A DNA stretch of 64,000 nt. Origin: a virus. Position numbers and translations under genes: made by a program. Shown here one piece after another: positions 28,701 to 51,464 of this stretch. The notes under the pieces are model-generated. The model saw only the letters and a list, made by a program, of their open reading frames with translations, did no database searches and was not told the origin of the DNA. The stretch spans positions 1 to 64,000 of the IMG/VR virus record IMGVR_UViG_3300042446_001954. One strand, given 5' to 3'. Every line of letters starts with the position of its first letter. The first letter of the stretch is position 1.

Positions 28701-31700
28701 TTCATTTACTTTTGTTGTTACTGTTAATGTTTCAGCGGGAACACTTACAACAAATCTTGGAACAAGTACAATTGGTCCAGCTTTCTCACCAAATGCTTAT
28801 ATTAGATTTGATAATGCTGATAGCATGTGGAAAATACGTGAGATTTCTGGTGCTAACCCTAACACATTTAATACAATCGTTACTGAAAAGTATACAGCTA
28901 ACGTAAACAATGCTGGTATTGTTCAGTTGAACGACACTGATACAAGCACAAGTACAACACAAGCCGCTACAGCAAACAGAATCAATCAGATGAGGTTGGA
29001 TGTAAATTCAAGAATTTCTTCCAACGTTGTTAACTCCGGTGCAGTTCTTGGTGTTGCACAACAGTATTCAACAACAATTACAGCCGCAGACCCTGGTGCA
29101 GGTTTCTTCCGACTGAACAATGCTACAATTTCTTCTGCAACCGCTGGTTACTTTGATAACCTTGACACATATGGTAATGATATTTCTACCATACTTACAG
29201 AATGGGGTCAATCAAACAGTGCAATCAAAGGTTACATCAGACTTTCTGTGTTTGGTTCACCAACATCGAAATATGCAGTATTTGCTATAGGTACAGTAAC
29301 AGATTCAACAGGCTTCAGAACAGTTGTTCTCACATACGTTTCTGGTGTGGGCACATTCACTGACAATGATTTAGTGATGGTGCAATTCACTAGAGCAGGT
29401 AACATTGGACCACAAGGACCTATTGGACCAATCGGACCTATTGGACCAATCGGACCTATTGGACCAATCGGACCTATTGGACCACAAGGACCTATTGGAC
29501 CACAAGGACCTATTGGACCAATCGGACCTATCGGACCACAAGGACCTATTGGACCCATTGGTAATACTGGACCACAGGGACCCATCGGACCAATCGGACC
29601 CATCGGACCACAAGGACCTATTGGACCAATCGGACCTATTGGACCACAAGGACCTATTGGACCAATCGGGCCTATCGGACCACAAGGACCTATCGGACCC
29701 ATTGGTAATACTGGACCACAGGGACCCATCGGACCAATCGGACCTATTGGACCACAGGGACCTATTGGACCAATCGGGCCTATCGGACCACAGGGACCTA
29801 TTGGACCTATTGGACCTATTGGACCACAAGGACCTATTGGACCTATTGGACCTATTGGACCTATTGGACCACAAGGACCTATCGGACCCATTGGTAATAC
29901 TGGACCACAGGGACCTATTGGACCTATTGGTAATATTGGACCACAGGGACCTATCGGACCCATCGGACCTATTGGACCTATTGGACCAATCGGACCTATT
30001 GGACCACAAGGACCTATCGGACCCATAGGTGCACAAGGTACCACAAGTTTCAACGTATGTAATACAACAAACATTGTAAGTTGTATAAGTGGCACAGGCG
30101 GTGGAGGTACCAACAACTTCTTTGCTGGATTCTGTGCTGGCCGCTGCAACACCACTGGCGGCGACAGTAACAACTTCATTGGTCGCTGTGCTGGTTTCTT
30201 CAACACCACCGGTAACTACAACACCTTCTTTGGTAACTCTGCTGGTCTCTGCAACACCACTGGCAGAGACAACTTCTTTGCTGGTCAATGTGCTGGTTTC
30301 AGCAACACCACCGGTAGCTACAACACCTTCATTGGTCGCTGTGCCGGCCGCAACAACACCACTGGCTCCCACAACACCTTCATTGGTCAAGGTGCTGGTC
30401 AATGCAACACCACTGGCGTCAGCAACAACTTTATTGGCAGGTATGCTGGTCTCCGCAACACCGGGGGCGTCAGCAACAACTTCTTTGGTCGTTATGCTGG
30501 TCAATACAACACAACCGGCAGCAACAACAACTTCTTTGGTCAAGATGCTGGTCTCTGCAACACCACTGGCTCCCACAACACCTTCATTGGTCAAGATGCT
30601 GGTCGCTTCAACACAGGGGGCAACCACAACAACTTTGCTGGTAATTGTGCTGGTCGCAGTAACACCACTGGCTGCTACAACAACTTCTTTGGTATCTGTG
30701 CTGGTGCAAGTAACACCACCGGCAGCTTGAACAACTTCTTTGGTCGTTGTGCCGGCCGCAACAACACCACTGGTAGTAACAACAACTTTTTTGGTTCATA
30801 TGCTGGTCGCTTCAACACCACCGGTTGCAGCAATATTTTCATTGGTAACGATGCTGGTTACTGCAACACCACTGGCAGCTTCAACAACTTTTTTGGTTTC
30901 TGTGCTGGTTGCAAAAATACCACTGCTTGCCACAACACGTTTATTGGTTACCGTGCTGGTCTATACAATACCACTGGCGAACATAACTTCTTTGCTGGTT
31001 TCTGTGCTGGTTTCACCAACACCACTGGCAGCAACAACAACTTCATTGGTCGGAGTGCTGGTCTCTGCAACACCACCGGCAGTCACAACAACTTCTTTGG
31101 AGAAGCTGGTCGCTTCAACACCACCGGCAGCTACAACAACTTCTTTGGTTGCTGTGCCGGCCGCAACAACACCACTGGTAGTAACAACAACTTTATTGGT
31201 TATGATGCTGGACGTTACAACACCACTGGCGCACATAACAACTTCTTTGGCCAAGCTGGTCGCTGCAACACAACCGGCAGCTACAACAACTTCTTTGGTG
31301 TCAATGCTGGTCTCAATAACACCACTGGTAGTAACAACAACTTTTTTGGCCAAAGTGCTGGTCGCTTAAACACCACTGGCCGCTACAACAACTTCTTTGG
31401 TTACTATGCTGGTCGTAACAACACCACTGGCTGCCACAACACCTTCATTGGTTATGGTGCTGGTTGCTGTAACACCACAGGCGCCGATAACAACTTCATT
31501 GGTCAATATGCCGGGCGTTGCAACACTACTGGCTCCAACAACTTATTATTTGGATGCGTTTCTGGTGTAGGCGCCGCTGGTCTTGCCAACATTACGACAG
31601 AATCTAACCGTATTATTATGGGCAATTCTGCCCATACTTGCGCCCAAATACAAATTGCATGGACCGTAGTTTCTGATATTCGTGATAAGTGTGTATTCAG

Positions 31701-34594: not shown

Positions 34595-36720
34595 TGTCGA
34601 ATACAGTAATTCAGATTAAGAAATCAGGTGAAACGGGTAACGTTCCTGTTGCGAATGGTTTAAATTATGGTGAATTAGCCATCAACTACAATGATGGTAT
34701 TATCTATTATAAAAATGAGTCGAATCAAATCAAAACGATTCGCCTACAGGATGTTTTCGAGTCGGTGAATGTGAATGGTACACTCTTAGTACCCACATCA
34801 GCAACAGACATTCTATCGTTCGAGAGTACCAATGGCATTACACTTACTGGTTATTCATCGAACGATAAAATTATCATCGGTGAAACACTATCGCCAATTA
34901 TTAATGCGGCTTTCAGTAAAGCCAATAGTGCAAATCTTACTGCACAAGCATCATTTGATTACGCCAATAACATTTCATTGACTCCAGGTCCAACTGGACC
35001 ACAAGGACCCATCGGACCCATTGGACCTATTGGTAATACTGGACCAATCGGACCGATTGGACCCATCGGTAATACTGGACCACAAGGACCCACAGGCTTG
35101 GATGGTCCAACAGGACCTATTGGACCAATCGGCAACACAGGACCACAAGGACCGATTGGACCGATTGGACCTATTGGTAATCAAGGACCTATTGGACCTA
35201 TCGGACCAATTGGACCTACTGGACCAACAGGACCAATTGCTGGATCAAACACGCAAATTATTTACAATGACGCCGGTGTTGCTGGTGCAGATTCACGTTT
35301 AACATGGGATGAATCAACTGGCATACTTAGCACAAATTTACTCAGTGTAACTCAATCTGCCGGTGATGAAGGTGGTGAAATTCTTTTAGCTAAAGCTGTT
35401 TCGAATACTACTTTAATTGGCACAGGCGTAACAATTGATGTATACCAAAATAGATTAAGATTTTTCGAACAAGGTGGTACTGCTCGGGGAGCATACATTG
35501 ACATAACTGCGGCATCTTCTGGCGTAAACACGAATCTTTTGGCTGGAGGTCCAACAGGACCACAAGGACCTATCGGTCCAACAGGACCACAAGGACCTAT
35601 CGGTCCAATCGGACCTATCGGTCCAATCGGACCTATTGGTAATACTGGACCACAAGGACCTATTGGACCTATCGGACCACAAGGACCCATCGGACCTATT
35701 GGTAATACTGGACCAATCGGACCGATTGGACCCATCGGTAATACTGGACCACAGGGACCCATCGGACCCATTGGACCTATCGGACCACAGGGACCTATCG
35801 GACCTATTGGTAATCAAGGACCTATTGGACCTATCGGACCACAAGGACCCATCGGACCTATTGGACCTATCGGACCACAGGGACCCATCGGACCTATTGG
35901 TAATACTGGACCACAGGGACCCATCGGACCCATCGGTAATACTGGACCACAAGGACCCATCGGACCCATCGGTAATACTGGACCACAGGGACCCATCGGA
36001 CCTATTGGACCTATCGGACCACAGGGACCCATCGGACCTATTGGTAATACTGGACCACAGGGACCCATCGGACCCATCGGTAATACTGGACCACAGGGAC
36101 CCATCGGACCTATTGGACCTATCGGACCACAGGGACCTATCGGACCTATTGGTCCATCAGGACCACAGGGTCCTATCGGACCCATTGGCCCAATTGGACC
36201 ATCAGGTCCACAAGGTCCTATTGGTCCAATAGGACCGTCGACCGCTATCAATGCAACAAATACAACAACATCACAAACATCATACATTGTTGGTGTGAAT
36301 GCTGCCGGTTCGAATCAGACACCGTTTGTCTCTGCAACTAATGCAGTGTATTTTAATCCAAGTACTGGAACACTATTCGCTGTTGCAAAGTCATTCAGAA
36401 TACCACATCCAACCAAAGAAGGTAAGATGTTGGTGTATGGTGTGCTTGAAGGTCCAGAAAATGGTGTCTATGCTAGAGGCAGACTCACTGGTTCAAACAC
36501 AATTGAGTTGCCGGAATATTGGACTAAATTAGTTGATCCGAATTCGATCACTGTGAATTTAACACCGATAGGTAGCTTTCAACAAATATATGTTCATGAT
36601 ATTGTCGATAATGTTATTTACGTTGGTGGTGAAAGAGATGTAGATTGTTTCTTCACAGTCTGGGCTGAACGTGTGGATATTGAGAAACTTGTGGTGGAGA
36701 CTGAGAGAGATGGCGATTAA
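34594..36720 (+). CDS. Tail fibre with MTD-like N-terminus and two collagen-like tracts
   Basis: The 708-aa protein begins with an MTD-type domain ([39 protein letters not shown]). Collagen-like tracts occupy about residues 132-215 and 319-549. Between them lies a globular block (about 216-318) that includes [17 protein letters not shown]. The C-terminal domain starts [20 protein letters not shown] and runs [20 protein letters not shown] to [16 protein letters not shown], a distal domain I recognise from fibres of T4-like marine phages. The stop overlaps the start of the fibrinogen-like gene, so the two are coupled. Confidence 0.8.
34987..35238 (+). repeat. Collagen-like tract 1 of the 708-aa fibre
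   Basis: About 84 residues of Gly-X-Y triplets rich in GPI, GPT and GNT encode a first collagen-like rod, directly after the MTD-like and linker region. Confidence 0.9.
35548..36240 (+). repeat. Collagen-like tract 2 of the 708-aa fibre
   Basis: About 231 residues of Gly-X-Y triplets, mostly GPI with GPQ and GNT interruptions, form the longest collagen-like tract in the window. It is the stalk before the distal domain. Confidence 0.95.
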
Positions 36721-42255: not shown

Positions 42256-44844
42256 ATGGCAAACTCAGACAAGAATATTTTAATCACACCGAGAACTGGA
42301 TCAACGACAGACGATCCTAGCATTGTATTCACGGGCGCAAACACTGCCGGTTTATTTCCAATTACTGTAAGGGCTTTACCCACTTCTAACGGCACATTGT
42401 CGTTTGAAGGTTCTGCGGGACAATTGTTTTCTGTCACAAATGATTTGACTGGTACAATTTTCTCTGTCAATGACGTATCTGGTATACCTTCAATTGAAGT
42501 ATTGGATACAGGCACAGTCAAACTTGCACAATATTCCGGTAGTGTTTTGGTTGGTGGAACAGCAACTGATGGTGTTTCTAAACTGCAAGTTACAGGTTCT
42601 GCTAACGTTTCTTCTTTGAGAATACAAGGATTCGGCCAAGTCATTAGTAGCACAGGAACATGGACTGGACCAAATTCTGGATTAATAGGACCAACCGGAC
42701 CACAGGGACCTATCGGACCATTAGGACCTATCGGACCCATTGGACCTATCGGACCACAGGGTCCCATCGGACCTATCGGACCCATTGGACCTATCGGACC
42801 ACAGGGACCCATCGGTCCATTAGGACCTATCGGACCCATTGGACCTATCGGACCACAGGGACCTATCGGACCATTAGGACCTATCGGACCCATTGGACCT
42901 ATCGGACCACAGGGTCCCATCGGACCTATCGGACCCATTGGACCTATCGGACCACAGGGACCCATCGGTCCATTAGGACCTATCGGACCTATTGGACCTA
43001 TCGGACCACAGGGACCTATCGGACCACAGGGACCCATCGGACCATTAGGACCTATTGGACCTATTGGACCTATCGGACCACAGGGACCCATCGGTCCATT
43101 AGGACCTATCGGACCTATTGGACCTATCGGACCACAGGGACCTATCGGACCTATTGGTAATCAAGGACCTATTGGACCTATTGGTAATCAAGGACCTATT
43201 GGACCAATCGGACCTATCGGACCCATAGGTTCAACAGGCACCACAAGTTTCAACGTATGTAATACAACAAACATTGTAAGCTGCATTTCTGGTGGTGGTG
43301 GAACAGGAACAAACAACTTCTTTGCTGGTTTCTGTGCTGGTGTCTGCAACACCACTGGCAGCCACAACAACTTCTTTGGAGAAGCTGGTCGTTTCAATAC
43401 CACTGGCTGCTACAACAACTTCTTTGGTTGCTGTGCCGGCCGCAACAACACCACCGGCGGCAACAACAACTTTATTGGTTCTGATGCTGGACGTTACAAC
43501 ACCACTGGCGCACATAACAACTTCTTTGGTAACGGTGCTGGTCGCTGCAACACCACTGGCTCCTACAACAACTTCTTTGGTGTCAATGCTGGTCGCAATA
43601 ACACCACCGGCGGTTACAACAACTTCTTTGGCCACAGTGCTGGTCGAGTCAACACCACTGGCTCCTTCAACACCTTCATTGGTTGCTATGCTGGACGTTA
43701 CAACACCACCGGTTGCAACAACAACTTCTTTGGCCCAAATGCTGGTCGTTTCAATACCACTGGCACCAACAACAACTTCTTTGGTTCTACTGCTGGTTTC
43801 AACAACACCACCGGCGGCAACAACAACTTTATTGGTTGTAGTGCTGGTCGCAACAATACCACTGGCCAGGGCAACAACTTCATTGGTACTTATGCTGGTT
43901 GCTGCAACACCGCTGGCAACTTCAACAACTTCTTTGGTGCTTGTGCTGGTCGATTCAACACCACCGGTAGCTACAACAACTTCATTGGTGGCTGTGCTGG
44001 TCTTTGCAACACCACTGGCAACTTCAACAACTTCTTTGGTCTGTGTGCTGGTCTCTTCAACACCACCGGTAGCCACAACTTCTTTGCTGGTTTCTGTGCT
44101 GGTCGCAACAATACCACTGGCAGCTTCAACAACTTCTTTGGTTTAAATGCTGGTTTCTGCAACACCTCTGGCTGCTTTAACGCTTTTGCTGGTAACTGTG
44201 CTGGTTTCAGAAACACCACTGGTTGCCACAACACGTTTATTGGTTTATTTGCTGGTTTCGCTAGTACCATTGGCAGCAACAACTTCTTTGCTGGTTTCTG
44301 TTCTGGTCTCAATAACACCACTGGTTGTAACAACATCTTCATTGGTGCCAATGCTGGTCTCTGCAACACCACTGGCTCCAGCAACTTATTATTTGGCTGC
44401 AATTCTGGCGCAGGTCTACCCGTTGGTCTTGCCAACATTACAACACAAAATGGCCGCATCATTATGGGTAACAATACTCACACTTGCGCCCAAATACAAA
44501 TTGCATGGACCACAGTTTCCGATATTCGGGATAAATGTATTTTTGGTAATGTGCCACACGGCCGTGGGTTCTTAAAGAAAATTAATCCAATCGAGTTTGC
44601 ATTCAAGAACAGAGAAACAAATGAAATAACCGATCCTAATGGCAAGCGCCGTTACGGTTTCTCTGCTCAAGAAATTCTTGAAGCTGAAGGTGATAGCAAT
44701 GTTGTAGTTTCTAATGAAGAACCAGATAAACTTCAAGTTACTAATGATTATTTGATACCCATTCTTGTGAACGCAGTGAACGAATTGACAGTAGAAGTTG
44801 ATGAACTCAGAGCTAGAATTACAGCTATTGAGAGAGCAAATTAA
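42256..44844 (+). CDS. Second S74-chaperoned fibre with collagen-like and NTTG repeats
   Basis: This 862-aa paralogue of the 2083-aa fibre lacks most of the N-terminal repeat region. Residues 1-140 form an attachment domain. A collagen-like tract follows (about 145-328), then the shared [18 protein letters not shown] linker. Twenty-one NTTG units occupy about residues 353-717. The S74 chaperone has SDIRDKC with Ser near residue 755 and [15 protein letters not shown], then a coiled coil. The linker and C-terminal domain closely match the giant fibre, so the two probably share assembly and exchange sequence. Late promoter AATAAATA precedes it. Confidence 0.85.
42688..43239 (+). repeat. Collagen-like tract of the 862-aa fibre
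   Basis: About 184 residues of Gly-X-Y triplets, mostly GPI with regular GPL and GPQ, show higher-order 15- and 18-residue periodicity. The tract leads into the same [10 protein letters not shown] linker as in the giant fibre. Confidence 0.95.
43312..44406 (+). repeat. 21 NTTG repeats of about 17 residues
   Basis: Twenty-one units of the NTTGxxNNFFGxxAGxx type, with Cys at the same positions as in the giant fibre. A block of four units (EAGRF, CCAGRN, DAGRY, then AHNNFFG) matches the giant fibre at 31081-31260 in order and in the missing codon. Confidence 0.9.
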
Positions 44845-44879: not shown

Positions 44880-45530
44880 ATGAAGAAAGTTTTGATTGCT
44901 ACGCCATGTTTGGACCAAAAGGTTGATGCATATTTTGTGCATAGCCTTTGTGAGTCGATAAAGTTAGGTCTCAAACACGACCTAGATATTCGCTGTGTAT
45001 TTCTTGCAAATGAAAGTATTCTTCCAATGGCTCGGAATGAACTTTTTACATTAGCACACAAAGAAAATTACGATATAATGGTATTCATCGATGATGACGA
45101 ATATTGGAAAGAATCTGTTTTAATAGATATCATCTTATCGGAAAAAGATGTTATCACAGTCCCCGTTGTGAACAAAGGTGATAAAGATATATCATATAAT
45201 ATTTGGCTTCCTAAGACTCCAGAGATTGATCCAACCGATGGTTATGTAAAGGTTGAAAAATCAGGAACAGGTTTCCTAAAACTATCTCGTAAAGTCATAG
45301 TCGATCTCTGGGAATCAAATACCGAATTAAATTTCCGAGGCAAACAACTAAGAAACATCTGTGAGTATACATATTCAGATGGTGGGTTTGTTGGCGAAGA
45401 CATTACATTGTCCAAAAAAATCAAAGAATTAGGTTACACAATCTGGTGTAACCCACACCATACAGTGTCGCACATCGGTAATAAAATGTACAAAGGCGAC
45501 TTTAAGAAAAGCAATTCTTCTCTTTTGTGA
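44880..45530 (+). CDS. GT-A (family 2-like) glycosyltransferase
   Basis: The 216-aa protein starts MKKVLIATPCLDQKVDAYFV. It has an Asp-rich metal site, VFIDDDEYWKESVLIDIIL (D71-D73), the GT-A DxD-like motif. The C-terminal part includes GGFVGEDITLSKKIKELGYT and WCNPHHTVSHIGNKMYKGDF, a pattern of phage GT-A enzymes with ED-type and His residues. AAAGGA precedes the ATG. It opens a cassette of six sugar and sulfate genes and overlaps the next gene (TGATG). Donor and acceptor sugars are unknown. Confidence 0.75.
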   Translation: MKKVLIATPCLDQKVDAYFVHSLCESIKLGLKHDLDIRCVFLANESILPMARNELFTLAHKENYDIMVFIDDDEYWKESVLIDIILSEKDVITVPVVNKGDKDISYNIWLPKTPEIDPTDGYVKVEKSGTGFLKLSRKVIVDLWESNTELNFRGKQLRNICEYTYSDGGFVGEDITLSKKIKELGYTIWCNPHHTVSHIGNKMYKGDFKKSNSSLL

Positions 45531-46822
45531 TGAGCAAACAATTTGACATTATTATACCCACGATGTGGGCTGCTAAAAGTTTTTTAAAATCTTTAGAAAA
45601 ATATATCTCTTATGACTCAGTGAGGTCGATCATTATAATCGACAATAACAAATCACGAAAGCCAAAGACAGATTTACTCAAACATAAAAAGGTCCAACTG
45701 ATCAGTTATGGCTTTAACATGTACGTCAATCCGGCATGGAATGAGGGTGTTTCAGCAGCAAAGTCTAATCTTTTATGTATTGCAAATGACGATATCACGA
45801 TAGAAGAATCTATATTTAAAATGATATCTGATCAAGGAATGAACACTGGTGATCTGGTCGGTGTGAACCTTCGTGGCTATCACGACAACTATAAGATTGA
45901 CGATTACATAGAAACGGATGAAAAAATTGTTCATCTGAACTATGACAGAACAAAGCCTATTGGCTCTCAAGCATGGGCATTTGGTATATGTATGTTCATG
46001 CAGAAAGACACATATTGCCAGATACCTAGCCTCTATAAGGTATGGTTTGGTGATGATTACTTGGCACAAAAAGCAAAGAAAATCTACGCCATAAATACTA
46101 ACAGAATCAAGGGTACAATCTCTGAGACACTGAAGCGACACGATCACAAAACGGATATTCATAAACGATTGATACTTGACTGTAAAAATCTAATTCGTTT
46201 TGATCACTTTGAAAATGGAAAAAATTGGGACATCCCAAAAAATATGATATCTGCAAATTATGAACAAACACCAAATAATGTGTTAGAATCGGAATACAAT
46301 AAAGCTAGAAATGTTATTTCCGACATAAACGAAAACGTACACATTCTTTATGATCTAGCAAAAGAATGCACACATGTAACAGAAATGGGCGTTAGAACTG
46401 GTGTTAGTACGAGAGCACTACTTTACTCTGGTGTGAATAAGTTAATATCATATGACTTGAATTTAGATTCAAAAGTCGAAAGTCTTTTTAAGTATGCAAA
46501 ATCGATTGGAAGAGATGCTGAATATATAAAGGCAGATGTACTCAAAATTGAGATTGAAGAAACTGACTTACTCTTCATTGACACTTACCACACCTATAGT
46601 CAGCTTAAACAGGAACTTCAATTACACGGAAACAAAGCTAGAAAATATTTGGCTTTCCATGATACTATGACATTTGGACTCACAGGTGAGAATACAAAAG
46701 AGGGAAACGGCCTTTTATCGGCAATCATAGAGTTTATTATCAAGAATCCGCACTGGAAATTCAAGATATATAAAACAAATAATAATGGTTTTACAGTATT
46801 AGAAAGAGTGATGAATAAATGA
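45530..46822 (+). CDS. Fused GT2-type glycosyltransferase and SAM methyltransferase
   Basis: The 430-aa product is read from the ATG overlapping the preceding stop (TGATG); an in-frame GTG lies 1 codon upstream. Residues 1-230 are GT-A-like: FDIIIPTMWAAKSFLKSLEK, then IIIIDNN near residue 34, ANDD at 85-88 and a WFGDD block near 172. Residues about 265-430 form a class I methyltransferase of the Methyltransf_24 type: CTHVTEMGVRTGVSTRALLY with the Gly-rich SAM motif near 285-294, DLNLDS, and LLFIDTYHTYSQLKQEL. The joining of sugar transfer and methylation suggests a methyl-capped glycan. It overlaps the next gene by ATGA. Confidence 0.75.
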   Translation: MSKQFDIIIPTMWAAKSFLKSLEKYISYDSVRSIIIIDNNKSRKPKTDLLKHKKVQLISYGFNMYVNPAWNEGVSAAKSNLLCIANDDITIEESIFKMISDQGMNTGDLVGVNLRGYHDNYKIDDYIETDEKIVHLNYDRTKPIGSQAWAFGICMFMQKDTYCQIPSLYKVWFGDDYLAQKAKKIYAINTNRIKGTISETLKRHDHKTDIHKRLILDCKNLIRFDHFENGKNWDIPKNMISANYEQTPNNVLESEYNKARNVISDINENVHILYDLAKECTHVTEMGVRTGVSTRALLYSGVNKLISYDLNLDSKVESLFKYAKSIGRDAEYIKADVLKIEIEETDLLFIDTYHTYSQLKQELQLHGNKARKYLAFHDTMTFGLTGENTKEGNGLLSAIIEFIIKNPHWKFKIYKTNNNGFTVLERVMNK

Positions 46823-47724
46823 GCAACCAAAAATACAGTATATTTCACATTCAAGGTGGAATTGGTAAACATATCGCCGCAACCGCAGTTGCAAGAGCAA
46901 TTAAAAACAACCACCCAGATCGTAAACTGATTATTGTTTGTGCATATACAGACATATTCATTAACCTTCCGTTCGTTGATAGAGTGTATCAAATAGGTGC
47001 AACACAATATTTTTACCAAGAATACATTCATGAAAAAGATTCGATAATTTTTCATCATGAGCCTTACTATACCACGAATCATATTCATAAGAGAAAATCA
47101 CTTATACCAAACTGGTGTGAGTTGTATGGACTCGCCTATTCAGGTGAGAAGCCTGAACTAAAATTTAATAAACTCCAGTTTGATGTATCAAAACAATTTT
47201 GGAATCGTAAGAAACCGATAATGTTGATACAGACAAATGGTGGTCCAATGTCACCAGATGCAAAATCACATTCTTGGACCCGTGATATGCCAGAAGATGT
47301 TGCTCAAAAATTGGTTGATCACTACAAGAATAATTATCACATCTATCAAGTAACTAAAATGAATTCGGTAAAGTTGATCGGCGCAGAACACATCTATGGA
47401 ACACCAACAAAAGTTCTCAGCCTTATGGAATTTTTTAGTGTTTTACTTCATGCGAAAAAAAGAATTTTAATAGATTCATGTTTGCAACATGCGGCTGCGG
47501 CAATGAATCGCAAGTCTACCGTATTGTGGAATGGAACAAGTCCCAAAGTATTCGGCTATGACTTACACGACAATATTACAACAGATGTTCCTTATGATTT
47601 TAAACTTCCAGGAAGCTATCTGTTTGATTTTGACTTTAATGGGAATGAGGTTGAGTATCCATACACAGAAACAACTCAACTATACGACATAAATAAGATC
47701 ATAGATTCTGTTGATAAACAATGA
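46819..47724 (+). CDS. GT9-like (heptosyltransferase-type GT-B) glycosyltransferase
   Basis: The 301-aa protein begins MSNQKYSIFHIQGGIGKHIA. It resembles GT9 enzymes, which start with an I-x-GG-x-GD/GK loop and then an A-x-A-x-A helix (AATAVARAIKNNHPDRKLII). The C-terminal half has MLIQTNGGPM, LMEFFSVLLHAKKRILIDSC and LQHAAAAMNRKSTVLWNGTS, the donor-binding half of a GT-B fold. It may act on an ADP- or GDP-linked sugar. It overlaps the GT2-methyltransferase by ATGA and precedes the sulfotransferase by 15 nt. Confidence 0.65.
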   Translation: MSNQKYSIFHIQGGIGKHIAATAVARAIKNNHPDRKLIIVCAYTDIFINLPFVDRVYQIGATQYFYQEYIHEKDSIIFHHEPYYTTNHIHKRKSLIPNWCELYGLAYSGEKPELKFNKLQFDVSKQFWNRKKPIMLIQTNGGPMSPDAKSHSWTRDMPEDVAQKLVDHYKNNYHIYQVTKMNSVKLIGAEHIYGTPTKVLSLMEFFSVLLHAKKRILIDSCLQHAAAAMNRKSTVLWNGTSPKVFGYDLHDNITTDVPYDFKLPGSYLFDFDFNGNEVEYPYTETTQLYDINKIIDSVDKQ

Positions 47725-47739
47725 AAAGGACAATGTGAA

Positions 47740-48708
47740 ATGAAAGAAATGATTAAAGAAATTATCCGTGAAGAAATGGCTCGCGCACAGGAAAAGACTT
47801 ATTACTTTATGGCAGGACTACCCCGTTCAGGTAGCACAATGCTCTCTGCGATTTTAAATCAAAATCCACGATTTTATTCTGGTCCCAGTTCTCCAGTAAC
47901 TGGTTTGATGATCATGTTAGAACAACAAATATCTCAAGATGAACTTTTCCGAGCATTTCCAAAAAATGAACAAGCTGGACAAATTATCGCAAATGTGATT
48001 AAACACTATTATAGTGATGTTGAGGAACCGGTAATCTTTGACAAAAATCGGTCATGGGTCAACCGTATTCATTATATTCCAGGATACTTCGGATGTGAAG
48101 CTAAAATTATTTGCCCAGTGAGAAACACCTCCGAAATCTTATCTTCATTCATCGCAATGCACAAGAGAAATCCATATGAAGTGAATGGTAAAATAAACTT
48201 TCTTGATGAGATGCTTGTAAAGTCGAATATTTCACTCACTGATGAAAATCGTTGCCAACTACTTATGTCCGAAATGGGAATTGTTGGTCAGAGCTATACT
48301 GGTCTCAAACAAGCATTGATGGAAGGCAAACAAAAGAACCTTCATTTTGTAGAGTATGAGGACCTAGTTACAAATGCTGAAGCTACCATGCGAAAGTTAT
48401 ATGAATTTCTTGGTGAAGAATATTACGAAGCACACGATTATGAAAATTTAGAAAATGTGCATAAAGAAAATGACGCTGAAGTTTATGGCTTTTCGGACAT
48501 GCACGACATTCGCAAATCGGTAGGAAAATCTGGAATTAATCCAGAAGAAATTCTTCCAGAATCAATACTTAAAGCATGTGAAGGTTCTGAATTTTGGAGA
48601 TCAATTGAAGAAGATATAAATACCGGCGATACAACATATCAAGAATCTGTAACGGATGATGTTGATAATAACTCATCAACAAATAATGAAAAACTAATAG
48701 GAGCATAA
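47740..48708 (+). CDS. Sulfotransferase (PAPS-dependent)
   Basis: The 322-aa protein has the sulfotransferase P-loop FMAGLPRSGSTMLSAILNQN (residues 23-42), which binds the 5'-phosphosulfate of PAPS. IICPVRNTSEILSSF follows at about 123-137, where the Arg and Ser usually bind the 3'-phosphate. A C-terminal VEYEDLVTNAEATMRKLYEF helix matches the family. After about residue 290 the tail is Asp/Ser/Asn-rich. AAAGGA lies before the ATG. The APS kinase-like protein two genes downstream could supply PAPS. Sulfated acceptors are rare in bacteria, so a phage glycan or host surface sugar is the likely target. Confidence 0.82.
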   Translation: MKEMIKEIIREEMARAQEKTYYFMAGLPRSGSTMLSAILNQNPRFYSGPSSPVTGLMIMLEQQISQDELFRAFPKNEQAGQIIANVIKHYYSDVEEPVIFDKNRSWVNRIHYIPGYFGCEAKIICPVRNTSEILSSFIAMHKRNPYEVNGKINFLDEMLVKSNISLTDENRCQLLMSEMGIVGQSYTGLKQALMEGKQKNLHFVEYEDLVTNAEATMRKLYEFLGEEYYEAHDYENLENVHKENDAEVYGFSDMHDIRKSVGKSGINPEEILPESILKACEGSEFWRSIEEDINTGDTTYQESVTDDVDNNSSTNNEKLIGA

Positions 48709-48710
48709 AA

Positions 48711-48995
48711 ATGGAAACACCACGCACAATCGAACAAATTCGAGGCACTATTCGATCCGCTAGAGACAGCGTTTGGGTCATTACAGATGAAATCGAAAAA
48801 CTGAATGCCGGCGGAACACCAAACGAAAATGCCAAAGGTAATATTGATCGTAACGTTTCGCATCTGAAGTTGGTCGTTTCTGATCAGGAAATAATCGATT
48901 CTGGTGAAGATATTGCTGACCTCACCGCAGCAATTACAACTGGTGAAGCAAAACTTGCCGAAGATATTTGGCCTGCGGACGAAGACACAGTTTAA
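48711..48995 (+). CDS. Small cassette protein, unknown
   Basis: The 94-aa protein starts METPRTIEQIRGTIRSARDS and contains two charged helical segments and an acidic C-terminus. No family is recognised. It begins 2 nt after the sulfotransferase stop and precedes the nucleotidyltransferase-cupin gene by 15 nt, so it is transcribed within the sugar/sulfate cassette. It could be an accessory or regulatory subunit. Confidence 0.5.
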   Translation: METPRTIEQIRGTIRSARDSVWVITDEIEKLNAGGTPNENAKGNIDRNVSHLKLVVSDQEIIDSGEDIADLTAAITTGEAKLAEDIWPADEDTV

Positions 48996-49010
48996 AAACT
49001 GATTTATATT

Positions 49011-49772
49011 ATGGACAATATTGTTATTTTTACAGGTGGTTTTGATCCAATTCACAGTGGACATATTTCTTGCATTAAAGAAGCAAGAAAACTGGGTAGA
49101 GTCGTAATCGGTTTAAACTCAGACGAATGGCTTACACGTAAAAAAGGTAAGCCATTTTTAACTTTCGAAGAGCGTAAAGCCGTTCTTGATGAGTTTAAAG
49201 ACATTTTATGTGTAATTGCTTTTGATGACTCAGATGACACAGCATCGGACGCTATTCGACAGGTTATGAATTTGTTTCCAAAAAACAAAATTATTTTTGT
49301 CAACGGCGGCGATAGAACAGAAGGCAATATTCCCGAACTGGAAGTTTTTCGTGACCAACCCAAAGTATCATTTCAATTCGGTATAGGCGGCCAAAATAAA
49401 AAAAATAGTTCCAGTTCTTTATTGTATGATTGGAATCAATCAACTGAAAAAAGAATTTGGGGCGATTCAAAGACCTATTACGACACTAAAGAGTCGAAGG
49501 TCAAAAGATTGGTGATCGAGCCAGGTAAATCAATTTCGATGCAATATCACCTGAGAAGAAACGAATTCTGGTTCATCGAATCTGGTGCAGGAACAATATA
49601 CACACTAGACGGTGAAAACATCATAAAACTGAAGACTATATATAAGCATGAAACCCATCATGTTTCTGTTGGTCAATGGCACATGATCAAAGCAGATACA
49701 GATGAAAAGCTGTGCATCATTGAAATTCAATATGGTAAATTATGTGAAGAAAAGGACATCGTAAGATTATGA
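49011..49772 (+). CDS. Fused cytidylyltransferase-type nucleotidyltransferase and cupin
   Basis: The 253-aa protein has an N-terminal TagD/RfaE-like nucleotidyltransferase domain: FTGGFDPIHSGHISCIKEAR with the HxGH motif H15-S-G-H18, VVIGLNSDEWLTRKKGKPFL, and an SSSSLL turn near 133-138 in place of ISTT. The C-terminal half (about 163-245) is a mannose-6-phosphate isomerase-like cupin: RLVIEPGKSISMQYHLRRNE, then FWFIESGAGTIYTLDGEN and HHVSVGQWHMI. The pair suggests making and shaping a nucleotide-activated sugar. It overlaps the APS kinase gene by ATGA. I do not know the substrate. Confidence 0.72.
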   Translation: MDNIVIFTGGFDPIHSGHISCIKEARKLGRVVIGLNSDEWLTRKKGKPFLTFEERKAVLDEFKDILCVIAFDDSDDTASDAIRQVMNLFPKNKIIFVNGGDRTEGNIPELEVFRDQPKVSFQFGIGGQNKKNSSSSLLYDWNQSTEKRIWGDSKTYYDTKESKVKRLVIEPGKSISMQYHLRRNEFWFIESGAGTIYTLDGENIIKLKTIYKHETHHVSVGQWHMIKADTDEKLCIIEIQYGKLCEEKDIVRL

Positions 49773-50626
49773 AAAAAATTCTAGTAATGGGTCTTCCTGG
49801 TTCAGGAAAAACATATCTCGCAGAAAGACTTAAAAAGTATCTAGAAGATAATGGTGATATCATGAAGATATCACCTGGTAAAGTTTTAAATTGTGAAGGA
49901 ATTCCAGACCACTCAATCTGGAAAGTTAGTGTCGATTGGTTTAATGCAGACGAAGTTCGCAAAAGATTTAACGATTGGGATTTTAGTAAAGAAGGTCGCA
50001 TTCGTCAAAGTATACGAATGTTTGAGTTTGCAATGAAGTGTAGTGGTGAATTTGTCATTTGCGACTTTGTTGCACCTCTACCAGAAATGCGTCACAATTT
50101 TAAAGCTGATTGGACGATTTGGATGGACACAATTGATGCTGGCAGATATGATGATACGAATAAAGCATTTGTACCACCAGATGTTTACGACTTTAGAATC
50201 ACCGAACAAAACGCAGAAAAATGGGTAGAATTCGTAGGCAACCACATACTTGAGGAGCGCCGTAGACCAAGATTCGATTGGCAAAAAGAAACTGTTCAAA
50301 TGTTAGGTCGTTGGCAGCCATGGCATCCAGGCCACAGAGCATTGTTTAACCGTGCTATCGCTAAGACAGGTCAGGTAGTCATTCAAATTCGTGACTGTCA
50401 AGGATGGCAAGGTAGTAATCCATTCGCAATCGAGCAAGTTAAGAACTATATTCGCAGAGACTTAGATCCACTCTATCAAGGCCAATACGAAATTCAAGTT
50501 GTTCCTAATATTGTAAATATTACCTACGGGCGTGACGTTGGTTATAAGATAGAACAAGAAGTTTTTACCGAAGAGGTACATTCAATCTCAGCCACAAAAA
50601 TTCGAGAACAAATGGGTTTAAAATAG
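49769..50626 (+). CDS. APS kinase-like protein fused to a nucleotidyltransferase
   Basis: The 285-aa protein has an N-terminal P-loop kinase, LVMGLPGSGKTYLAERL (GxxGxGKT at 8-15). It also has the CysC-like run WFNADEVRKRFNDWDFSKEG, RIRQSIRMFEF and VICDFVAPLPEMR, where APS kinases have D-x-D-x-R-x-GL, R-x-N and S-F-I-x-P. The C-terminal half (about 175-285) is a nucleotidyltransferase with GRWQPWHPGHRALFNRAI (HPGH 186-189) and HSISATKIRE, of the NMN adenylyltransferase-like type. The APS kinase part would make PAPS for the sulfotransferase. The second domain's substrate is open; ATP sulfurylase activity is one possibility. Confidence 0.7.
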   Translation: MKKILVMGLPGSGKTYLAERLKKYLEDNGDIMKISPGKVLNCEGIPDHSIWKVSVDWFNADEVRKRFNDWDFSKEGRIRQSIRMFEFAMKCSGEFVICDFVAPLPEMRHNFKADWTIWMDTIDAGRYDDTNKAFVPPDVYDFRITEQNAEKWVEFVGNHILEERRRPRFDWQKETVQMLGRWQPWHPGHRALFNRAIAKTGQVVIQIRDCQGWQGSNPFAIEQVKNYIRRDLDPLYQGQYEIQVVPNIVNITYGRDVGYKIEQEVFTEEVHSISATKIREQMGLK

Positions 50627-50640
50627 ACTCAAAAGCAAAT

Positions 50641-50700
50641 TTACTGATGGCATAAATACTTGGTAGTTTTAAAAATAAGGTATAATAATGCCATCAGTAA
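50641..50700 (+). promoter_or_regulatory. 13-bp inverted repeat enclosing the gp13 late promoter
   Basis: TTACTGATGGCAT (50641-50653) and ATGCCATCAGTAA (50688-50700) are perfect reverse complements. The second arm is the gp13 start codon and next three codons plus one base. The CATAAATA box lies at 50651-50658, so a transcript from it starts after the left arm. Only read-through RNA from the upstream cassette contains both arms and could hide the start codon. Confidence 0.75.
50651..50658 (+). promoter_or_regulatory. Late promoter-like box CATAAATA (gp13)
   Basis: CATAAATA lies 29 nt before the gp13 ATG, with an AAGG ribosome binding site at 50677-50680 between them. Its first three bases belong to the left arm of the 13-bp inverted repeat. 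Confidence 0.65.
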
Positions 50701-51464
50701 CAAATAGACAAACATTCAAAGAATACTGCTTACGTAGATTAGGTTTTCCAGTGATCGAAATCAATATTGACGACGACCAACTGGAAGACAGAATAGATGA
50801 TGCGTTTTCATACTGGCAAGACTACCATTTTGACGCACTGCAAAAGGTGTATTACATCAAACAGCTTGACGCTACAGATATCACAAATAAATATATCAAT
50901 ATGTCACCAAGCGTCACAAGAGATACAGGTAATAATGCAGTAAATATTGTCGGTGTAACAAGAGTATTTCCAATATCAGATTCGATCAACACAAATAATA
51001 TGTTCGATCTGCGTTATCAACTCCGTTTGAACGAACTGTACGACTTTACTTCTGCATCATATGTTAATTACACATTGACAATGCAACACCTACGTTCACT
51101 TGAGATCATGTTTACGGGTGAAGTACCTATTCGATTCCAAAGACACATGCATAAGCTATTTTGTGATTGGGGTTGGGGCACAGCCGTAAAAGCCGGAGAT
51201 GTAGTGATTGCTGAATCATATGCAATGATTGATTCCGCACAATACGCATCGGTTTGGAATGACCGTTGGCTTAAAAAATATGCAACAGCCCTCATCAAAA
51301 GAACTTGGGGAAACAATCTTAAAAAGTTTGCCGGCGTACAACTTCCTGGTGGTGTTGTGCTGAACGGTGATAAGATTTATGAAGAAGCTATGGAAGAAAT
51401 CAAAGAATTAGAAGAAGAAATGACAAATAGCTATTCGTTACCAGTTGAATTCTATTTAAACTAA
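50688..51464 (+). CDS. gp13: Neck protein gp13
   Basis: The 258-aa protein (T4 gp13 is 309 aa) has the neck protein pattern: RQTFKEYCLRRLGFPVIEIN, DDAFSYWQDYHFDALQKVYY, VTRVFPISDS and DLRYQLRLNELYDFTSASYV. The C-terminal part includes NDRWLKKYATALIKRTWGNN and LKKFAGVQLPGGVVLNGDKI. gp13 and gp14 join the tail to the head. The start codon lies in one arm of a perfect inverted repeat that could limit translation from read-through RNA. It is coupled to gp14 by TAATG. Confidence 0.9.
   Translation: MPSVTNRQTFKEYCLRRLGFPVIEINIDDDQLEDRIDDAFSYWQDYHFDALQKVYYIKQLDATDITNKYINMSPSVTRDTGNNAVNIVGVTRVFPISDSINTNNMFDLRYQLRLNELYDFTSASYVNYTLTMQHLRSLEIMFTGEVPIRFQRHMHKLFCDWGWGTAVKAGDVVIAESYAMIDSAQYASVWNDRWLKKYATALIKRTWGNNLKKFAGVQLPGGVVLNGDKIYEEAMEEIKELEEEMTNSYSLPVEFYLN

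Follow-up and report, generated by a model that had tools for sequence, protein, structure and literature searches.

The start of gene 13 (gp13) in this T4-like virus lies in a predicted RNA hairpin that is probably a cis-acting translational lock of the T4 e/I-TevI type, active only in read-through RNA. The window, which is the whole stretch of DNA analysed, comprises bases 1–64,000 of an 80,707-base virus record. Transcripts that extend into gp13 from the preceding gene would carry the left arms of two helices. In such RNA the AUG is predicted to lie in a 13-base-pair helix and the Shine-Dalgarno sequence in an inner 6-base-pair helix, and ribosomes would not start. RNA from the CATAAATA promoter would begin inside the loop, as predicted from the geometry of the box, and would be open since it lacks both left arms. 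Translation of gp13 would thereby follow its own late promoter and be insulated from whatever transcribes the upstream cassette. By computation, relatives keep the same masking while the masking arm changes.

A preliminary description of this DNA had reported a perfect 13-base-pair inverted repeat, with the gp13 start as its right arm and a left arm that overlaps a late promoter. The repeat and the positions of both arms were confirmed. The two arms are separated by a 34-nucleotide loop, the right arm is the first 13 nucleotides of the gp13 ORF, and the CAT of CATAAATA forms the final three bases of the left arm. The product of the ORF matches PHROG 211, “head-tail adaptor Ad2”, of the T4 neck/head-tail adaptor family (E = 5e-40), and annotated gp13 proteins also match it by tblastn. 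The inner helix, which covers the G residues of the Shine-Dalgarno sequence, was absent from the preliminary description. The features are listed in Table 1.

Table 1. Features of the gp13 leader and its flanking genes, in window coordinates.
Feature	Position	Strand	Remarks
Upstream co-directional gene (APS-kinase-like/PHROG “kinase”)	49769..50626	+	Stop codon 50624–50626, 14 nt before the left arm
13-bp helix, left arm TTACTGATGGCAT	50641..50653	+	Would be present only in read-through RNA
Putative late-promoter box CATAAATA (NATAAATA type)	50651..50658	+	Motif only
Inner 6-bp helix, left arm AUACUU	50656..50661	+	Folding, pair probabilities
Predicted late transcript start	50664	+	Box at −13 to −6 by the T4 rule; uncertain by a few bases
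Shine-Dalgarno AAGG	50677..50680	+	7 nt before the ATG; both G's in the inner helix
Inner helix, right arm AGGUAU	50678..50683	+	Folding, pair probabilities
13-bp helix, right arm ATGCCATCAGTAA	50688..50700	+	gp13 start codon and the next 10 nt
Gene 13 (neck protein/head-tail adaptor), predicted locked gene	50688..51464	+	PHROG and tblastn matches

A scan of the 80.7-kb record for perfect repeats of at least 13 base pairs with a loop of at most 60 nucleotides found two, while approximately 0.12 are expected under a first-order Markov model, and a chance origin of the gp13 repeat was rejected on this count. One is the gp13 repeat (50641–50700). The other, at 71003–71047 of the record (7003–7047 of contig L089), has 14 perfect base pairs and a 17-nucleotide loop and is longer than the gp13 repeat. 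An Rfam search with the gp13 hairpin returned only sub-threshold, meaningless matches and no known RNA family.

The motif NATAAATA has been reported as the late promoter of cyanophage S-PM2 (PMC2984593), and in T4 the distance from the late box to the transcript start is approximately one helical turn (PMC2988020). ATAAATA is not over-represented in the window, with 19 copies found against 21 expected. Its copies are on the plus strand in 18 of 19 cases, and several lie 20–50 nucleotides before starts that have a ribosome site. By this motif, CATAAATA is the predicted late promoter of gp13, and its position would leave the late RNA without the 5’ arm. In the relative L090 (HTVC008M), at approximately 1467–1483, CATAAATA stands only 8 nucleotides before the gp13 ATG, and the upstream gene is on the opposite strand. 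The late gp13 RNA of L090 would be almost leaderless.

Folding of 50630–50710, a check proposed in the preliminary description, bore out the hairpin. The predicted energy is −21.5 kcal/mol against −8.4 (SD 2.4) in shuffled sequences, a z-score of −5.5. Both helices keep pair probabilities near 1 (0.69–1.0) within a 501-nucleotide RNA, and the Shine-Dalgarno sequence and the AUG are both predicted to be held in a helix in read-through RNA. The opening cost, defined here as the cost of holding the 29-nucleotide ribosome site single-stranded, was compared between read-through and late RNA. At gp13, read-through RNA has an opening cost of 17.7 kcal/mol, and late RNA with the predicted start near 50664 has one of 4.7 kcal/mol. 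The corresponding T4 values are 16.4 and 4.3 for e, 18.3 and 7.5 for segB, and 15.6 and 9.7 kcal/mol for I-TevII, so that the difference at gp13 equals or exceeds that of all three. Five other late-promoter genes in the window show a difference of only 0.1–3.2. Every 5’ end tried within 50651–50667 gave an open site, whereas a 5’ end at 50641 gave a closed one, at 15, 25, and 37 °C.

Among 23 T4 late-box leaders ranked by the same measure, the top ranks are taken by I-TevII, e, segB, and gene 26. Most of the classical head and tail genes rank low. Masking in T4 (NC_000866) is also high, at 6.0–11.1 kcal/mol, for genes 26/51 (116428/116479) and 53 (77385), both of which are bidirectional late-box regions, and for gene 24 (107323). 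The genes of this set other than gene 26, which a review already cites as regulated by structure, may be unrecognised read-through locks.

The closest known counterpart is T4 gene e, whose long transcripts are repressed about 100-fold and whose late RNA lacks the 5’ arm (PMC3014915). In T4 e, the pairing is between AATACCT, with which the late box ends, and AGGTATT, which surrounds the Shine-Dalgarno sequence; the inner helix of the window, AUACUU/AGGUAU, is in the same place. The window differs in having an extra 13-base-pair helix on the start codon itself, and in locking a neck gene where T4 e is a lysis gene. In T4 gene 13, no NATAAATA box occurs within 70 nucleotides before the start. The genes for I-TevI, I-TevII, segB, and Aeh1 mobE have a late promoter inside the hairpin, and their early or middle read-through RNA folds shut (PMC2988022). 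The opening energies of segB and I-TevII are similar to that of gp13. Those four are homing endonuclease genes within early or middle units, whereas gp13 belongs to the core virion genes and lies in a late cluster. According to reviews (PMC3014915, PMC2988022), T4 soc, 49, and 25/26 are further late genes in which structure masks the ribosome site; these resemble gp13 in that masking, and gene 26 scores high on the opening-cost measure. All features that can be tested in sequence were found at gp13, and the predicted lock mechanism is that of T4 e, soc, 49, I-TevI, segB, and mobE. The T4-type layout proposed in the preliminary description is thus supported by the opening energies and by the comparative tests at gp13 given below, but not by conservation of the exact arm.

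Among 80 gp13 relatives, the exact left arm is present in L001 and L002 only. Identity to the window is 100% over 4.2 kb for L001 and 99.99% over 8.8 kb for L002/L082. Because of this near-total identity, L001 and L002 are the same virus species as the window and say nothing about selection. A scan of 2.9 million viral contigs with the pattern GATGGCATAAATA-N15-45-ATGCCATC matched only L001 and L082, and the left arm alone was found in six further unrelated contigs, none with a matching start. Relatives L010, L014, and L015 keep the identical right arm ATGCCATCAGTAAC and lack the left arm. A gp13 start kept in relatives that have lost the upstream arm had been named beforehand as the observation that would count against the lock, and taken literally it is what relatives such as these show. 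Compensatory changes in the two arms had also been anticipated, but the exact 13-base-pair arm has no variants and that helix offers no covariation. The expected conservation therefore fails for the exact arm, which is confined to near-identical contigs, and holds for the masking of the ribosome site, which relatives achieve with other, variable arms.

In many relatives, a short arm lies within 5–6 bases after the box, before the predicted transcript start, and is complementary to the Shine-Dalgarno region of the same leader. Examples are CCTTA/TAAGG (L004), CTCCT/AGGAG (L220), GTCC/GGAC (L055), CCCC/GGGG (L054), TCCAT/ATGGA (L227), and CCATA/TATGG (L067). When the pre-start bases are joined to their own leader, the mean gain is −2.54 kcal/mol, against −1.20 (SD 0.22) with arms swapped among non-redundant leaders of edit distance greater than 6 (N = 35); the observed value is reached in 0 of 2000 permutations. 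The opening cost contributed by the 30 nucleotides upstream averages 5.20 over 47 leaders and 3.35 (SD 0.30) in swapped controls (0/2000). Without the window, the values are 5.02 and 3.34 (SD 0.29; N = 46; 0/2000). Shuffling the letters inside each arm weakens the lock (p = 5.5e-5, N = 48; p = 0.002, N = 35). The effect repeats in a held-out second collection of leaders at edit distance greater than 4 (1/2000, N = 31) and is not significant there at the strictest filter (about 0.1, N = 18). Counts of perfect Watson-Crick stems give a weaker signal than energies (p of about 0.0005–0.015). Pair counting on a MAFFT alignment of the leaders was dropped because that alignment is not structure-aware. 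As a control, the gp18 tail-sheath leaders of relatives, which have an internal late promoter after the terminase gene, showed no lock by the swap, opening-cost, or shuffle tests.

The strength of the masking varies among relatives. In the pelagiphage (HTVC008M) set any lock is weak (27/2000 by opening cost), and L019/L020, which have the same upstream gene as the window, have almost none. In the cultured Pelagibacter phage Mosig EXVC030M, where haem-oxygenase genes precede gp13, the predicted difference in opening cost is 5.8 kcal/mol. L212–L214 have an independent long lock, in which TAATAGGAGAAA pairs with an arm that precedes the box (GTTTCTCC...TTA). This lock is 12–15 base pairs long on the gp13 Shine-Dalgarno sequence, with the arm approximately 45 nucleotides upstream of the ATG at 601. 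Base changes between L212 and L213 keep the pairing. Selection at the level of structure, with fast turnover of the arm, is the best explanation suggested by these comparisons of leader sequences.

A hairpin that deals with read-through RNA should no longer be needed where the upstream gene lies in the opposite orientation. In the window, gp13 stands downstream of a co-directional unit able to read through, the upstream gene ending at 50626. Orientation by simple ORF length gave one opposite-strand clade, and two more scans were added. In all, opposite-strand neighbours precede six non-redundant gp13 leaders, which represent three independent insertions. From reading their translations, the neighbours are phosphatase-like (L202, L206, L207), oxygenase-like (L374, L429), and methyltransferase-like (L484). 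The lock is at most 1.0 kcal/mol in all six opposite-strand leaders, while co-directional leaders average 5.13 kcal/mol (n = 91), with 11 of 91 at or below 1.0 (Mann-Whitney p = 2e-5; Fisher p = 1e-5). Counting only the three independent insertions, the chance is about 0.002, and at edit distance greater than 4 Fisher p = 0.004. L374 retains a 4-base-pair CCTA/TAGG pairing, and the loss of the lock is not complete everywhere. The gene-13 leaders of this large T4-like group may carry a fast-evolving RNA insulator. Masking would be under selection while its arm is repeatedly rebuilt, upstream of the box, overlapping it, or immediately downstream, and the insulator would decay after inversion of the upstream gene. 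The chance that this wider proposal is right is put at slightly below even.

The 13-base-pair arm could instead be a recent mutational product, such as a template switch that copied the gp13 start backwards, or a chance match, with no function of its own. Its perfect match, its restriction to a single lineage, and its absence from every other relative, even those that share the right arm exactly, speak for such an origin. It is nevertheless unlikely. The small number of such repeats expected in the record would be far smaller still at a late-promoter/start site, and the arm comes on top of an inner helix masking the Shine-Dalgarno sequence in the way seen in relatives. The lock strength of the relatives exceeds that of swapped controls even when the window is left out, and a template-switch origin is compatible with a later function.

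Comparison with relatives also bears on the proposal that the stem serves the cassette mRNA as a processing or protection signal (an RNase III site, a 3’-end stabiliser, or a terminator), which is improbable. A long stem shortly past the upstream stop codon would suit that role. However, relatives pair the Shine-Dalgarno sequence or start specifically with bases before the predicted transcript start, and RNase III needs a longer stem than the 4–5 base pairs that they often form. The right arm is not followed by a T run, and the terminator reading was rejected as the site is not among the terminator-like sites in the scan. A repeat acting as DNA, in the form of a divided operator for a protein repressor of the late promoter, has very little probability. 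One arm does overlap the promoter box, and T4 I-TevI binds an operator overlapping its own late promoter (PMC2988022), but the arms of relatives differ completely while complementarity is kept, as expected of RNA pairing and not of a protein site. The translational lock remains the preferred reading.

The auxiliary cassette upstream of gp13 (44880–50626, about 44.9–50.6 kb) encodes glycosyltransferases, a sulfotransferase, a nucleotidyltransferase-cupin, and the APS-kinase-like protein. It lies between a tail-fibre gene (42256–44844) and the gp13/neck operon, and is enclosed in a run of co-directional genes, for baseplate, tail, and structural proteins, that begins at 4.7 kb. Because the cassette sits amid late structural genes, read-through RNA into gp13 could be late as well as early. 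Sigma-70-like matches are no more frequent than expected by chance (28 found against 23.9, SD 5.8). Locks in relatives also follow long, structural-looking upstream genes (for example, L010 and L055). For these reasons, insulation of gp13 from read-through is preferred to early silencing. Three related repeat blocks in the window (29400–30030, 35540–36240, and 42680–43250) are approximately 70–77% alike, and all match the long gene upstream of gp13 in L010. By this similarity, they are probably fibre repeats shuffled between structural genes.

The preliminary description had extended the silencing to the whole neck-terminase operon. Only the gp13 start is predicted to be locked, and silencing of the whole operon is more than the analysis supports; the terminase small-subunit gene has its own start 17 nucleotides after gp15. 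The starts of gp14 and gp15 each overlap the preceding stop, so coupling could extend the effect of the lock to these two genes. We infer that insulation sets the timing or dose of gp13, and perhaps of gp14 and gp15 through the start-stop overlaps.

As far as the literature was searched, the new elements are the target of the lock, which is a core neck gene, the covariation across the group with turnover of the arms, and the dependence on how the upstream gene is oriented. Known cases of the T4 read-through lock are a few lysis, endonuclease, and accessory genes. Here the lock would act on a core gene of the virion that has a variable cassette of host-type genes immediately upstream, in a group known mainly from metagenomes. 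The comparison offers many natural versions with interchangeable arms, together with a natural control in the opposite-strand neighbours, where the lock is gone. It predicts a lock where co-directional auxiliary genes have been inserted ahead of an essential late operon. If the wider insulator proposal is true, such insulators would allow foreign metabolic cassettes to enter in front of an essential virion operon while the expression of that operon stays undisturbed.
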